Assembly: GCA_010015805.1 (NCBI GenBank) | Contig: ML978130.1 | Coordinates: 124,001-188,000 of the forward strand | DNA from: Rhizodiscina lignyota | Taxonomy: Eukaryota > Ascomycota > Dothideomycetes > Aulographales > Rhizodiscinaceae | Direction of reading: 5' to 3' | DNA: 64,000 bases | Shown here: positions 28,663 through 35,723 of the stretch, in pieces | How the letters are laid out: each line of letters opens with the position of its first letter | How positions within the stretch are numbered: the stretch's first letter is position 1 | The notes under the pieces: generated by a model | Told to the model about the DNA's origin: nothing | The model's input: the letters and a program-made list of their open reading frames with translations, nothing else | Database searches by the model: none | Position numbers and translations under genes: made by a program

Positions 28663-31114
28663 ATGGACGTTTTCATGGGAGACCCGGGTACGACAGCATC
28701 CCTTACACATGAAGACCACGACGATTCCTTTATGGATATTGCCACATCCGATAACCTACCAGAATGGGATACATCGTGGACTGATGGATATGTTTCCCCG
28801 GACTTGGAATGGGCAACGAATGTGAGTACATTTAATGGCTATGCAAAATGTATCTACGAAATATCTTGGAATACAAAATTAACCTCATTCAGTCTCAAGG
28901 AAGTTTAGAGCCAATCGTAGGGATGACGAGAAATGCCGCATTTGCGGATTTCAGTGGCCATCACCATGCTTCGTATTCCGTGACCGACCTTCCGGTCGAC
29001 TGGGATATTTTCTTTGAGGGGCCATTTCATCGGCGAGAAGCTACTAAGGTGGCTGATTCAGGTGAACACATGCTACGGCCCTTGTTAAACATTTCCCATG
29101 AGAAAGGACAACAGCTTGGGATACTTAGAGAGCATTTCTCAATGCACTCGCACGGAGGAACATTGGAACGGCAACCTTTCAAACCAACCTTAGATTTCGC
29201 ACCCCCGCTGAAGGAAGAGCATTGTCCTGTGCCATCGGTTGTGCATCAGCACATCTCTAGCATGCTAAATCCTATTACCAGCAGTGCTAACATGCTTTCT
29301 CCGACCTCGAATGAACTCCAGTCCGGGCTCAGTGCTTCGCAAAAGGACGAAGTATTTTTCAACAAGCCTGCGGTCAGTAGCCCACCCATACGTCAGTCTA
29401 AGAAACTATCTATGCGGAGGCGGACCTCCGAACGACCTCCTGCAAAATCATTCCTCAACACTAGAGGATGCCCTCGGCATCTGCGCGAGCAACAAATACC
29501 AGGCTATCGATGTTTTGATCAGTGGAATGTGTCCCCTACAGTGACAGCGCCCTTGAAGCGGCGTCGGATGACGACGACGCAGAGAGATCGTACGCGAGGA
29601 GTGAAGAAGAAAGGTCCTTGTTTGCGCTGCCGATTGTACAACCTCAGCGTGAGTATTGGAAATGCATTCATGTTTTGAAAGATACGATACTGACCAGCTT
29701 AATTTGCAGTGCTCTGTGGGTAGGCCGTGTTCAACGTGTGCGGAACTAATCGCACACACAGACAGGAGCCGTAACTTACAATGGGCGGAATGCATCTCCT
29801 CATCTCTGGAAGACGTGAATATCTTTACACAGTGTGAGTGAAGATTGTTGCATTATCATAGTATTTGAATAACTAACGCAGGCGATTCAAGGTCTTACTA
29901 TTGCTGGAGAAGTCCAAGTGTCCGAGACTGTGCCCCTTTGCGGGGATGATCAGGTTTTACGTGATTGCATGCCATTACTGCGCTGTCTGGTCGAACAAAA
30001 TAGCTGGTGGAGTCCGAATTTATCGGTAATCTTTGATGGGCCTCTACGTCAGCATTTGGCATTGAATCCATACCTTGTGCTCGCGGACGACAAGCTCTTC
30101 TTCGTGATGGAGAAAAGCTTCTTCTCACACGAAGCAAAGTCCGTCAACGTATCAAGCATTTGTTACATTTCGAAAGGACCGTTCACGATTACGGAGGAAT
30201 TGGCAAAGCATTACGAAGCTTCCGGTGCTGCCGCGCGCCTTCGAGGCCTGAAGACTCTTTGGAGGTCATGGTGTGCGCATATCGGCTTCGTGGCTATTCA
30301 AAAGGCACTCAGACGGCGAACCCTCCAGCGACTCTCCAGATCACACCGGATCAGATTATTGGTCTGCCTCATCAGCCTGTTAAAGACTGTTCACGAGCTA
30401 AAGTCTGATCTCGGGAATCGATGGGCCTTCATAAATCCGCTGACAGCTAAGTTCTTGTCACCTTATCAGCAAAGGTTTGAAAGCATGCGAGCTCATCTTG
30501 TCAAGATGCTATCATATTACGCTCGCTATCTCGCTTCTCAATCCTTTTCATCCGAGTCTCCAATCCACAACTGCTTCGTAGGTTCGAACGCTGGAATGTC
30601 GGTATCTTTTTCGATCTTCTCCGCATTAGACAAGGAAATAGGTCGACTCCTAGAAGATGAGAACAGGGCTTTGTCAAAAGAAGCGTACCATGCAGCAAAT
30701 TTTGCGACGCTGAAGATTATTTTTGCCGATACAACACCACAATACGATATGCCAGGTATGAGGGACCCCTCAGTGTCGGCAGGACATCAGCGCTCACAAG
30801 AGGACTTTACTCATCTAGAGTATAGCCATCAAGTGGAGAGATTGTCCATCGCACTCGCAGGATGCTCCCTTGATGACACTGCCAAAGAAGAGCCACTTCC
30901 GCTGTACGAGACCTTAAAATATTGCGATGGTAAGATAGCTCCTGCATGTAAGATCCTCGCACCGACTTCGCAAGACCAACGCTCCAACATATCAACTACG
31001 TATGACGCGATCAGCAACGATCAGTGTTTGAATAGCACAACCGCACAGTCCATGGGCGCCGTTGAAAAGGTCATACCTGGAATATTATCTTGGGTCAAGG
31101 CGAACGCATCATGA
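28663..31114 (+). CDS. transcription factor with internal Zn(II)2Cys6 cluster
   Basis: The model joins 28663-28821, 28893-29648, 29710-29833 and 29913-31114, giving about 746 aa. Unlike most family members, the binuclear cluster is internal: Cys296-X2-Cys299-X6-Cys306-X5-Cys312-X2-Cys315-X17-Cys333, preceded by a basic stretch (KRRRMTTTQRDRTRGVKKK). The long last spacing and the flanking LQWAEC fit a known fungal subclass in which a KGPCLRC-type cluster sits mid-protein. The second intron cuts the cluster directly before its third Cys. For intron 3 the obvious acceptor at 29881 breaks the frame, and using the AG at 29912 restores it. The C-terminal half is helical and probably regulatory. It converges with the GQTDW precursor gene (416 bp between them) and could regulate it, but that is a positional guess. 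Confidence 0.75.
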
Positions 31115-31530: not shown

Positions 31531-31887
31531 CTACCAGTCGGTCTGACCGCGCCTCCAGTCCGTTTGGCCGCGCTTCTCTTCCACTTCACGCTTCCAATCT
31601 GTCTGTCCTCGCTTCTCATCCTCCACTTCACGCCTCCAGTCAGTCTGGCCACGTCTCCAATCTGTCTGGCCTCGTTTCCAGTCTGTCTGACCTCGCTTCA
31701 CATCTGTCTCAGGATTGCGCTTCCAGTCTGTTTGACCACGCTCAACCAGCTCGGCAGCATGGTTATTAAAGCTCGGAAATTCGACTTTCCTTGTGCCCAT
31801 AGAGAGAGAGTCAAGCTCTGACACTGGGACTCCGTTGGCTGCAGTAACGAAAAATGCCACGACCACAGAAGCGATGATGAACCGCAT
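31531..31887 (-). CDS. secreted repeat precursor, seven GQTDW cores with kexin sites (RiPP/pheromone-like)
   Basis: This is a single-exon gene of 118 aa. Residues 1-19 (MRFIIASVVVAFFVTAANG) form a signal peptide. After a pro-region with no repeats come seven identical pentapeptides GQTDW at 51-55, 66-70, 73-77, 80-84, 94-98, 107-111 and 114-118. Six copies are preceded by KR or RR and the first by ER. Every copy but the last is followed by KR or RR, and the last Trp is the final residue before the stop. Acidic spacers (NPETDVKR, EVEDEKR, EVEEKR) separate some units. This is the layout of kexin-processed fungal precursors, which include alpha-type pheromones and dikaritin-type RiPPs (ustiloxin, asperipin, phomopsin). 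The core contains no Cys, unlike many filamentous-ascomycete alpha pheromones, and no Tyr. I know no product with this core, and no UstY/DUF3328 modifying gene is in this window. Processing in the Golgi by Kex2 and a carboxypeptidase would release the peptides. Gene confident; product class inferred. Confidence 0.85.
   Translation of the reverse strand: MRFIIASVVVAFFVTAANGVPVSELDSLSMGTRKVEFPSFNNHAAELVERGQTDWKRNPETDVKRGQTDWKRGQTDWRRGQTDWRREVEDEKRGQTDWKREVEEKRGQTDWRRGQTDW
31534..31737 (-). repeat. coding tandem repeat: seven GQTDW units
   Basis: Seven 15-nt core units, separated by 6 to 30 nt of linker, encode the same pentapeptide, but no two share the same codon spelling; Thr alone uses ACA, ACC, ACG and ACT. 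Trp is TGG throughout. The repeat is thus old at DNA level yet identical at protein level. Confidence 0.9.
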
Positions 31888-32616: not shown

Positions 32617-33621
32617 TCAATAATCTGGTTTGCGAGCGGATCCGACACTCTCACCCTTTGCCAACCTTCCCCGGTTCAGGTCAAAGTTGTCCTTTGGCGC
32701 TTCGTGCTCCACGCTCTTCCACATCTCATCAATAAGCTGCACACTCTTCTCGCTCAGCGGCCCCTTCTTGATCTGTTCGAGCGTCTCCCGCAGCTGAGCT
32801 GGACTGGTCGAGCCGATGATGATGCCATCGCCAAATTCGTTCTTCAGCGCGGAACTGCATGCAACCCAGCGATTTGCCAGCTCCGCCTTGGAACATCCTT
32901 CGTTCTCAGCGATGTTTTCCCATTTCTCAAGAGCAGCGATCATTGATGGCTTCATGTAGAGGCCGGAATACAACTCGCTCAAGCCGATGGCAGTATTAAA
33001 GCGGCCAGCGCCTTGTAGCACTTGGTCCTTCGTTTTGGTAAGAAAACCCCCGCCCAATGGGCTGTAACCATAGAATGACATATTGAATTCTCTAAGCATC
33101 GGAAGCAAATCCGTCTCGATGTGGCGCGCAATCGCACTGTATGTGCCCTGGTAGACGCTCGGAAGGACGTAGCCGTGTTGTTTGCAATGATCATATACCT
33201 CTCGGACTTCCTCCGGAGTGTGATTTGAAACACCGAAGCGCTTGAATACGCCTTCCTGGTAGAGTTGATTGACAACTTTCAATGATGCATCCAACGGGAC
33301 GGAGGCGTCGGGTGCGTGGAAGTACATGACCTCTATTTGCTTTGTGTTGAGCTTCTGTAGAGATTCTTTCGCTGATTCTACCATGGCACCTGCTTCGAGC
33401 GAACCCGGTGTCCATCCGCCAGGCCATTTTGTGTCGATGGCGAATCGTGATGCTGCGTTCTCTCTGCCGAGAATCTCCTCGCTCTTGCCGTACAGCTGAG
33501 CGGTGTCGATCGTGCCAACTCCGTACTCTTGGAGAATTTTGAACCTTTCTTGCACAATCTCCGTAGACGTGTCTTTCAGAAAGGCTCCACCGCCGCCCAT
33601 AATGATCTTAATGTGAGACAT
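32617..33621 (-). CDS. aldo-keto reductase (AKR7-like, aflatoxin-aldehyde-reductase type)
   Basis: This is a single-exon gene of 334 aa from the ATG at 33621 (MSHIKIIMGGGG). An in-frame ATG ten codons earlier exists but gives a poorer start. It is a TIM-barrel NADPH-dependent reductase of aldehydes and ketones. The catalytic tetrad is visible: Asp and Tyr in GTIDTAQLYGKSEE, Lys in IDTKWPGGW and His in VMYFHAPDASVP. The cofactor-binding end shows GDGIIIGSTSPAQLRETLEQ. The sequence FKRFGVSNHTPEEVREV and the length match the AKR7 group, which reduces dialdehydes. No transit signal. It lies between the repeat precursor and the sugar transporter. A role in modifying a metabolite is possible but there is no direct evidence. 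Confidence 0.88.
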   Translation of the reverse strand: MSHIKIIMGGGGAFLKDTSTEIVQERFKILQEYGVGTIDTAQLYGKSEEILGRENAASRFAIDTKWPGGWTPGSLEAGAMVESAKESLQKLNTKQIEVMYFHAPDASVPLDASLKVVNQLYQEGVFKRFGVSNHTPEEVREVYDHCKQHGYVLPSVYQGTYSAIARHIETDLLPMLREFNMSFYGYSPLGGGFLTKTKDQVLQGAGRFNTAIGLSELYSGLYMKPSMIAALEKWENIAENEGCSKAELANRWVACSSALKNEFGDGIIIGSTSPAQLRETLEQIKKGPLSEKSVQLIDEMWKSVEHEAPKDNFDLNRGRLAKGESVGSARKPDY

Positions 33622-35723
33622 GCTGTTGGTGTGGTTAAGCGACGATAGCAAACGGGGCGGAAGGATTCAGTGCCTGCGATACAACCAGACGCTGTTGGAT
33701 GAATACAAAAGTCGACTGACTGGTGCTGGGATGTTCACTCGCTCTCTTAACTTTCGGGATCTTATTTTCAGTCTGCTGAAGAAAATTCGGAGCAAGCGAC
33801 ATTGCCCGTTCGGGAGTCACGTAGCCGTCGGGCGTGTCGAAATGCGGAAACATATGCTCCGACCGTCGGAGCGGGACATAGTATCTACCTAACCTCCATG
33901 ATGCACCCGGTCCTATTTATTCAGTGAGTTCAAGCTATTTTACGAAAGAAAAAGTATAGTTCTCTGAAGAGTGGACAAGATGAACGGTGTTTCACCTCCA
34001 AAGATCGCGCCCGTCGTATCATGGAATTCTTGCAGTGGAGGCCCGATGAAAGCCCGGATATTAAGTCATCTAACACACTACGGAGCACCAGCGATATGAT
34101 ATTGAAATCATTTAAGGGGGCAATATTGAGACCTCTTTCTCTTTCACTCGGATATATGCTTGGTGGCTCAAGTAGGATGCCACCTTCAAACAATCGTGGC
34201 CTTTGCGAGAAGCCTCAAAATTCTGGTACTAGTGAGTTTTCCAGGACAGAGTCTGAGATGCAGCTACGCGACAAAATGGGTTTGATTATACGTGGAGTCT
34301 GCTTGTTCATTTCCTCTGACTTGGACAATTTCGTATATGCTCTTCTCATAGCTTCTTCATTGTGGATTTTGTCACTTTCTGTTCTTGGACGAACGTACCG
34401 CACACAGAACCATTTCCGGCTTTAGTTTCCATATATCTTTGTGTCTCATCATTCTAGCCGCTGCTGCACTATCGTTACTCAGACATACAATAGCCTACTC
34501 GTGGTGCTTCACTCATTTTAGCGACTTCTCACAGTCCACGCGAGTCATGCATCATCTGCTAATAACTCCGAGATCACGCAAATGTATCAAGCTCCTGCAT
34601 ATTTCGTACTCAGTGGCGATCCGCTGCTGTATAAGGGTAGATGAGACTAATGTTAATTCTAGGATCACGCTAATCACTACTGTACTCAATAGGGCAGCAA
34701 AAGGTGAAGGTTCAGGCCATTGAGCAGCGAGGATAACCACCCCCTTGACCCTCTGCCATAAACCCTTAATCAGGTTGTCAAAGGTTTGTATTCTCGTCGA
34801 ATACAATCACAAGAACATATCGCAGAACTTCTAAGCAATGTCTTGATTACCTTGAAGAGTAAGAAACCCTTATCCTGAAGCATTACATACCGATTCACTC
34901 ACCCAATTACCCCGTCGCAGCCAGGCTCGGAACCACCTCCTTCTCAACTCCCCGAGGATTAGCATTTCCGCAATACCGACAAATTATCGGGCTGATGATT
35001 CTCGCCATTTAGCCCTTAAGTCAGGAAGTGTCGTAGTTGCGGAGAGTTTTGGGCCGATTCTGAGAAGCGCGGCCTTTGTGCCGTGGCAATTATTAACCAC
35101 ATCACCCTTCAAAACTGTGGCGCCCAACGACGCTCAAGCGTGAGCAAAATGTCGCGCAATAGCTGCTCAGACTGCTAGGATGTATATGCTCTTCAATGAA
35201 TAAAGGCTAAGTTTAACAAGCTGCTCATTCTGAACAATCACACCCCGAGACACGTCGAGCCAGACTTCCAAGGGTGCTCCCGCTTGCCTCGAAGAGCAAA
35301 TCGCATTGACGCCACTCTCTTGAGCGCCGTGGAGATCAACTATTCTGCCAACGAGATTCTCGAGGCAGCAATTTCTTTTTCTAGACCATCTGCCGACATG
35401 TAACGCGCATTTTGAGTTTATCCTAATTACCGCGTGGTGATCGAGCAGTTTGGATAGGACCCACTCAATTTAGCCTGAGGGCAGCTGTGCATTGCATTGG
35501 CGACCCCAGCTTCCCCAGATTCTCCACGCAGGGTATGGCAAGTTCCACTTGAGGCCCCGCAAGCTCCCCGGTGTTGGTACATAAGGAGGAGATATGTATA
35601 TCTCCCGAAACAATTGCAATCCAATGGCACGCTTCTAATCTGATATATCTGCGTTTCCACAATTTCAAACATACATTGGATTCTGATTTCTTCGAATCTT
35701 CCTTTCAGAGAGTACCAGCCACG
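33622..35723. other. 2.1-kb gene-poor stretch
   Basis: No supported gene. It contains the promoter of the aldo-keto reductase (left) and of the sugar transporter (right). Short frames on both strands have no domain features, and no clear repeat is seen. Confidence 0.45.

Follow-up and report, generated by a model that had tools for sequence, protein, structure and literature searches.

The 64,000-nucleotide stretch of Rhizodiscina lignyota DNA analysed here (the window) contains a small open reading frame in which one pentapeptide, GQTDW, recurs, and it raises the question of what such a gene makes and whether its design is new. Rhizodiscina lignyota is a Dothideomycete of the order Aulographales. 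An earlier note, made from the letters of the sequence, had presented the locus as a candidate novel system producing either a linear signal or a new class of RiPP. Our analysis points to the linear product: the gene is probably a Kex2-processed repeat protein (KEP), and what it makes would be linear, secreted GQTDW with a free C-terminal Trp. In our view it is a KEP not described before, with a core of the DW[K/R]R type and a design already described for fungi.

A precursor with seven identical cores

The earlier note had placed the gene correctly at 31531-31887 and had given no strand, which is minus (Table 1). As had been described, the seven identical pentapeptides and a stop straight after the last Trp are seen in the translation, where DWKR or DWRR occurs six times together with one terminal DW. 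Across the six frames of the window, this precursor was the sole frame with at least three identical KR- or RR-bounded fragments of 3-12 residues. The array is not a chance pattern. By protein search the precursor is present at one place only in the 33.4-Mb assembly, and a Pfam scan of the precursor found no domain. Upstream of the gene there is one TATAAA, and no TGAAACA motif was found there; neither observation enters the argument.

Table 1 Features of the GQTDW locus, numbered by position in the window.
Feature	Residues and context	Position	Strand	Basis
Precursor gene	single exon, 118 aa + TAG	31531..31887	minus	translation
Predicted signal peptide	about residues 1-19, MRFIIASVVVAFFVTAANG	31831..31887	minus	hydropathy; cleavage site by inspection
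Pro-region	residues 20-50, VER at its end ahead of core 1	31738..31830	minus	translation
GQTDW core 1	residues 51-55; N-side monobasic ER, C-side KR	31723..31737	minus	
GQTDW core 2	residues 66-70; KR on both sides	31678..31692	minus	
GQTDW core 3	residues 73-77; N-side KR, C-side RR	31657..31671	minus	
GQTDW core 4	residues 80-84; RR on both sides	31636..31650	minus	
GQTDW core 5	residues 94-98; KR on both sides; spacer EVEDE ahead	31594..31608	minus	
GQTDW core 6	residues 107-111; N-side KR, C-side RR; spacer EVEE ahead	31555..31569	minus	
GQTDW core 7	residues 114-118; N-side RR, then TAG right after Trp	31534..31548	minus	
Aldo-keto reductase gene	end 729 bp upstream of the GQTDW gene ATG	32617-33651	minus	
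Convergent gene with Zn2Cys6-like stretch	416 bp between stops	28663-31114	plus	

The layout of the precursor has several telling features. First, the N-terminus is hydrophobic, with a mean Kyte-Doolittle value of 3.11 over residues 4-14 and values of at most -0.15 in all windows starting after residue 25, which agrees with the signal peptide proposed earlier and predicted here from hydropathy and from the sequence by eye. Second, dibasic KR or RR pairs stand on the N-side of six of the seven cores and on the C-side of all six non-terminal cores, so that the KR/RR flanks previously claimed hold everywhere except ahead of core 1, where VER is found. Because ER, and not a dibasic pair, lies on the N-side of core 1, its release can be expected with less confidence than for the remaining six. 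Third, three spacers (NPETDV, EVEDE and EVEE) separate some of the cores, and since the stop follows the last Trp directly, Trp would be the mature C-terminal end. As a sequence design, this layout supports the earlier proposal of a secreted precursor arranged by Kex2 logic for multiple copies of a five-residue peptide.

Selection on the core

Counting states minus one in each column, the seven copies are separated by a minimum of seven base changes, every one of which is silent. Under a simple neutral model such an all-silent pattern has a p of 6e-6 to 5e-5, the range being set by transition bias. From this comparison of copies, the better reading is that the GQTDW peptide is under selection, which we favour over homogenisation because homogenised repeats would also show uniform silent sites. 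Recent tandem duplication of the units is ruled out, since the cores differ at these sites. It is very unlikely that the gene is silent or decaying and makes no peptide: the precursor is an orphan in the protein searches run and its first spacer may have arisen from a core by decay, but the frame is open, the seven cores are intact and their changes are silent only. In that spacer, NPETDV (31696-31713, minus), PETDV and the GQTDW copy most like it disagree at 6 of 15 bases, and 2.5% of shuffles come as close.

Assignment to the KEP class and proposed processing

Proteins of this kind already form a named class, common across fungi, and the novelty claimed for the system is not supported. KEPs were defined in PMC6339444 (Le Marquer 2019), which reported 1193 of them with repeats of 3-352 aa, and PMC7329392 (Umemura 2020), where repeats of at least 8 aa were required, reported 7878, including 2560 without homologues. 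The GQTDW precursor has the N-terminal signal peptide of this class, as judged by hydropathy, and more than the three repeats parted by KR, RR or KK, namely seven cores of which six have a dibasic pair ahead. What it has in common with linear KEPs is the signal peptide, at least three identical KR/RR-bounded repeats, the form of a small secreted protein and the absence of a DUF3328/UstYa gene nearby. Its 5-aa core falls below the 8-aa minimum that only the Umemura survey applied; it lies inside the range of Le Marquer, whose pipeline has no such minimum and takes cores from 3 aa. If GQTDW is made, short-core KEPs may be undercounted. The string GQTDW was not found in the literature text searched, and supplementary tables, outside that search, may list it.

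Cleavage, secretion and the unmodified state of the peptide are what we infer from this design. The signal peptide would bring the precursor into the secretory pathway, where Kex2 would cleave after the KR and RR pairs; one Kex2-type P-domain was found in the genome, in a frame of 864 aa. A putative Kex1-type carboxypeptidase would then remove the basic residues from the GQTDW ends. The expected output is six, perhaps seven, linear copies with a free C-terminal Trp, plus acidic spacers; the calculated [M+H]+ of GQTDW is 606.252. Mushroom KEP peptides have been observed in linear form by mass spectrometry (PMC9769878). If made, GQTDW would be a candidate for a secreted signal of ribosomal origin and very small size, open to direct synthesis and testing.

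Linear or modified product

Dikaritins (ustiloxin, phomopsin and asperipin type) have their precursor layout and Kex2 logic in common with the GQTDW gene, whereas the UstYa/DUF3328 gene that adjoins a dikaritin precursor was not found near this one and the core has no Tyr. The genome-wide search gave 76 pieces of UstYa matches, and the closest of them on the GQTDW contig is at a distance of 135,242 bp; six other KEP-like frames of the genome, by contrast, are 898-1233 bp from such a piece. Since UstYa matches are absent within 135 kb of the gene and these six frames have one at 0.9-1.2 kb, a linear GQTDW peptide is likelier than a new RiPP class. The new class was rejected: it has no enzyme support in the genome-wide UstYa search or in the window, where none of the 28 Pfam-scanned frames suggested a RiPP enzyme (introns were ignored, and split genes may be missed).

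The earlier note had also argued from the lack of Tyr. This argument is weak, as repeats in three of the six UstYa-adjacent KEP-like frames, a sample chosen by eye and not random, contain Trp and no Tyr; lack of Tyr is thus not enough in itself to argue against modification. Together with the richness of the genome in UstYa matches, such repeats speak for a modified, for example cyclised, RiPP in which Trp is the modified residue and whose enzyme genes are at other places in the genome. We nevertheless consider such a product improbable, given the distances above, the result for the 28 window frames, and the average of 3.09 genes between DUF3328 genes and KEPs in PMC7329392. According to the same survey, 22% of KEPs are near a DUF3328 gene and 6120 of 7878 have none nearby, and Trp is present in about one quarter of the repeats from KEPs without a DUF3328 neighbour. 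The linear secreted peptide, which the earlier note also named, is the reading that survives.

Comparison with alpha-pheromones

Ascomycete alpha-pheromone precursors share their layout and Kex2 logic with the GQTDW precursor, and some alpha-pheromones end in GQPCW, which the GQ..W of the core resembles. STE2 is present in the genome, and scans for WC..G[QE]xC and PYGxPxG turned up no multi-copy precursor, which leaves room for GQTDW as a much shortened alpha-type sexual pheromone of R. lignyota. This idea is, however, extremely unlikely. The residues after the Kex2 sites are GQ, NP (once) and EV, so that the lone NP is the only XP and STE13 dipeptides (XA/XP) are absent. The core contains neither two conserved Cys nor PYG[L/M]P[I/V]G, the features given for alpha-pheromones in PMC6339444, and its 5 aa compare with 9-24 aa for known pheromones in that source. 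A better candidate is the KEP at G000:C4:732624-733265, whose repeats each carry two Cys and whose KR sites are followed by EPVP-type dipeptides, yet it is 3.2 kb from a UstYa match.

The scans gave the following counts. WC..G[QE]xC had 40 matches, all of them more than 1 kb apart, against 20 for the reversed pattern; the loci covered 30 of the 40, and none of the 17 in-frame contexts inspected was a repeat precursor. PYGxPxG had one match, which is not a precursor, against one in the control. For KR-[ED][AP][ED][AP], 43 matches were obtained against 28 in the control. Five of the 43 cluster at C2:1462311-1462723 and two at C14:635085-635273, and eight loci were inspected in context. The looser CxxxG[QE]xC gave 412 against 217 in the control (the first part of the matches being listed), and the scan for paired W[K/R]R sites, which does not enter the conclusions, had 354 matches against 205 in the control (listed in part, without loci). 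A MAT-alpha search had no match in the genome or in any control genome and is hence uninformative.

Similar proteins with cores ending in DW and possible role

Using the whole precursor as query, a protein search of 5.8 billion sequences yielded 628 candidates, of which the precursor alone reached E <= 1; the search is limited to proteins of about 65-206 aa sharing five-residue words. The searched collection includes the NCBI proteins of R. lignyota; the gene neighbouring the precursor is NA57DRAFT_78599. With a bait consisting of the repeat region and variant cores, which itself contains the DW-KR motif, scoring covered the 7999 candidates with the most words in common, and three proteins were found at E <= 10. 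The first, from the mushroom Stygiomarasmius scandens (Agaricales; P0006), matched at E 1.8e-3 and contains VFRSADW five times, single copies of FRPDW, GTFSADW, VIRPAAW and QIRNASW, and GPDW at its end. The second, from a 934-bp metagenome contig (P0007), matched at E 0.21 and has cores such as GSGTQDW. Both have ...DW cores followed by KR. The third (P0008, E 9.5) was judged unrelated by inspection.

Direct BLASTP against the GQTDW precursor gave 3e-10 for P0006 and 6e-12 for P0007, with layout-keeping permutations reaching at least the observed score in 79 of 3000 and 19 of 3000 cases, respectively; for the N-terminal parts alone, this happened in 36 of 2000 and 1544 of 2000. On the same score, six KEP-like frames of the R. 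lignyota genome reached 26-58, compared with 138 (P0006) and 128 (P0007). When P0006 was used as query in the genome, the GQTDW gene was the best match (E 1.6e-6; next 0.36). P0007 found another KEP first (E 0.005, mainly through the signal-peptide part) and the GQTDW gene second (0.031). Convergence may account for the likeness of GQTDW to both proteins, because the bait held the DW-KR motif and permutations reach the scores.

The GQTDW precursor has repeated DW[K/R]R at its Kex2 sites, and in the Agaricomycete DW[K/R]R-type KEPs (MiSSP8, the XSDW repeat of Le Marquer, and P0006) the core likewise ends in DW right before KR or RR. P0006 resembles it further in its acidic spacers, in ER ahead of its first core and in the DW end, and differs in also having cores ending in ASW and AAW. 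Unlike these proteins, the present gene has the core GQTDW instead of XSDW or VFRSADW and a Dothideomycete host, and MiSSP8 is likened to it by motif only. The XSDW repeat was reported in Basidiomycota (PMC6339444). Laccaria bicolor MiSSP8, with its DW[K/R]R motif, has a proposed role in hyphal aggregation and is required for ectomycorrhiza formation (PMC10106355). Its motif occurs also in saprotrophs, and a fruiting role was suggested (PMC7105643), and it is among the transcripts up in both mycorrhiza and fruiting bodies (PMC8708209).

The likeliest role for GQTDW would be that of a self-directed developmental or cell-surface signal, comparable to the Laccaria MiSSP8 proposal, and we put this forward tentatively, as a somewhat doubtful suggestion whose sole basis is motif resemblance. 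The need for MiSSP8 in ectomycorrhiza formation would fit a secreted effector acting on the plant or on other microbes, but the saprotroph motif and the fruiting-body transcripts count against such an effector, which seems quite unlikely. As a broader idea, GQTDW could be an ascomycete member of a Dikarya-wide group of short ...DW peptide hormones for hyphal aggregation or fruiting with a common receptor; this is rather unlikely, and if it is true, short-core members would have been missed by the survey requiring repeats of at least 8 residues. A point against the signal reading is that kep knockouts of Coprinopsis cinerea had no phenotype in axenic culture (PMC9769878). If GQTDW is made, a Dothideomycete would have a DW[K/R]R core, a motif described from mushrooms and from an effector of mycorrhiza, and such a core in an ascomycete is a point of some interest.

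Other KEP-like frames and neighbouring genes

A KEP scan of 59 loci and the window gave 23 rows, many being long unrelated proteins or the same DNA read in another frame. Among the 12 best of the 76 UstYa pieces, taken with 1.5-kb flanks (L002-L013), four have a KEP-like frame (L003, L004, L009 and L012), those of L004 and L009 being cut by the locus end, and none was found within 1.5 kb at the other eight. L053 and L055, the other two of the six, were taken in owing to their STE13 pattern match and not from these 12. A signal peptide is visible in the same frame only in L053, L055 and L009; L012 has one in another frame. Among the repeats of the UstYa-adjacent frames, QSPDLGTYVYF and EEDPFKWD occur seven times each, and MAMNPTQWQNADEVNF three times, once in altered form. 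These frames look dikaritin-like, and the GQTDW gene is not in such a place.

Several of these loci deserve separate mention. In L053 (G000:C2:1462065-1462736, plus), the seven QSPDLGTYVYF cores alternate with STE13-like spacers (EAEA, EPEP), and this KEP, 1.1 kb from a UstYa match with several UstYa pieces around, forms a dikaritin-like cluster. L012 (G000:C14:523529-523825, plus) has its EEDPFKWD repeats, with Trp and no Tyr, at 1.0 kb from such a match and is possibly a Trp-modified dikaritin. L009 (G000:C3:336764-337075, minus; NVDSTSQAEWDGGGDFAPD repeats) and L056 (G000:C3:2661509-2662063, minus; ATPPPDEFGPWDSEVDEFGSWVD repeats) are KEP-like, with Trp and no Tyr, each about 1 kb from a UstYa match. 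The pheromone candidate mentioned above (L060, minus) is apparently spliced, with QIECGFGDDEPWCKE repeats followed by KR and the dipeptides, and is a seventh KEP-like frame near UstYa, the distance to the piece being 3,244 bp; near it is another KEP-like frame with ELYQNPSE repeats (C4:727339-727605). Within L054 (G000:C14:634500-635400, minus), there is a secreted repeat protein rich in His, Asp and Lys; it has KREAEP sites, and its gene apparently consists of several exons.

Around the GQTDW gene, the 28 Pfam-scanned frames showed, as farther neighbours, a sugar transporter, CYK3, a fungal transcription factor, a HET protein, a ferric reductase, a GST and an acyl-CoA dehydrogenase. In the convergent gene, the Zn2Cys6-like stretch scored 18.8 bits against Pfam Zn_clus, below the cut-off of 21. 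The NCBI protein for this gene (P0004, 716 aa) omits the stretch, an alternative splice gives the Zn2Cys6-like cluster GPCLRCRLYNLSCSVGRPCSTC, and an error in the public gene model is possible.
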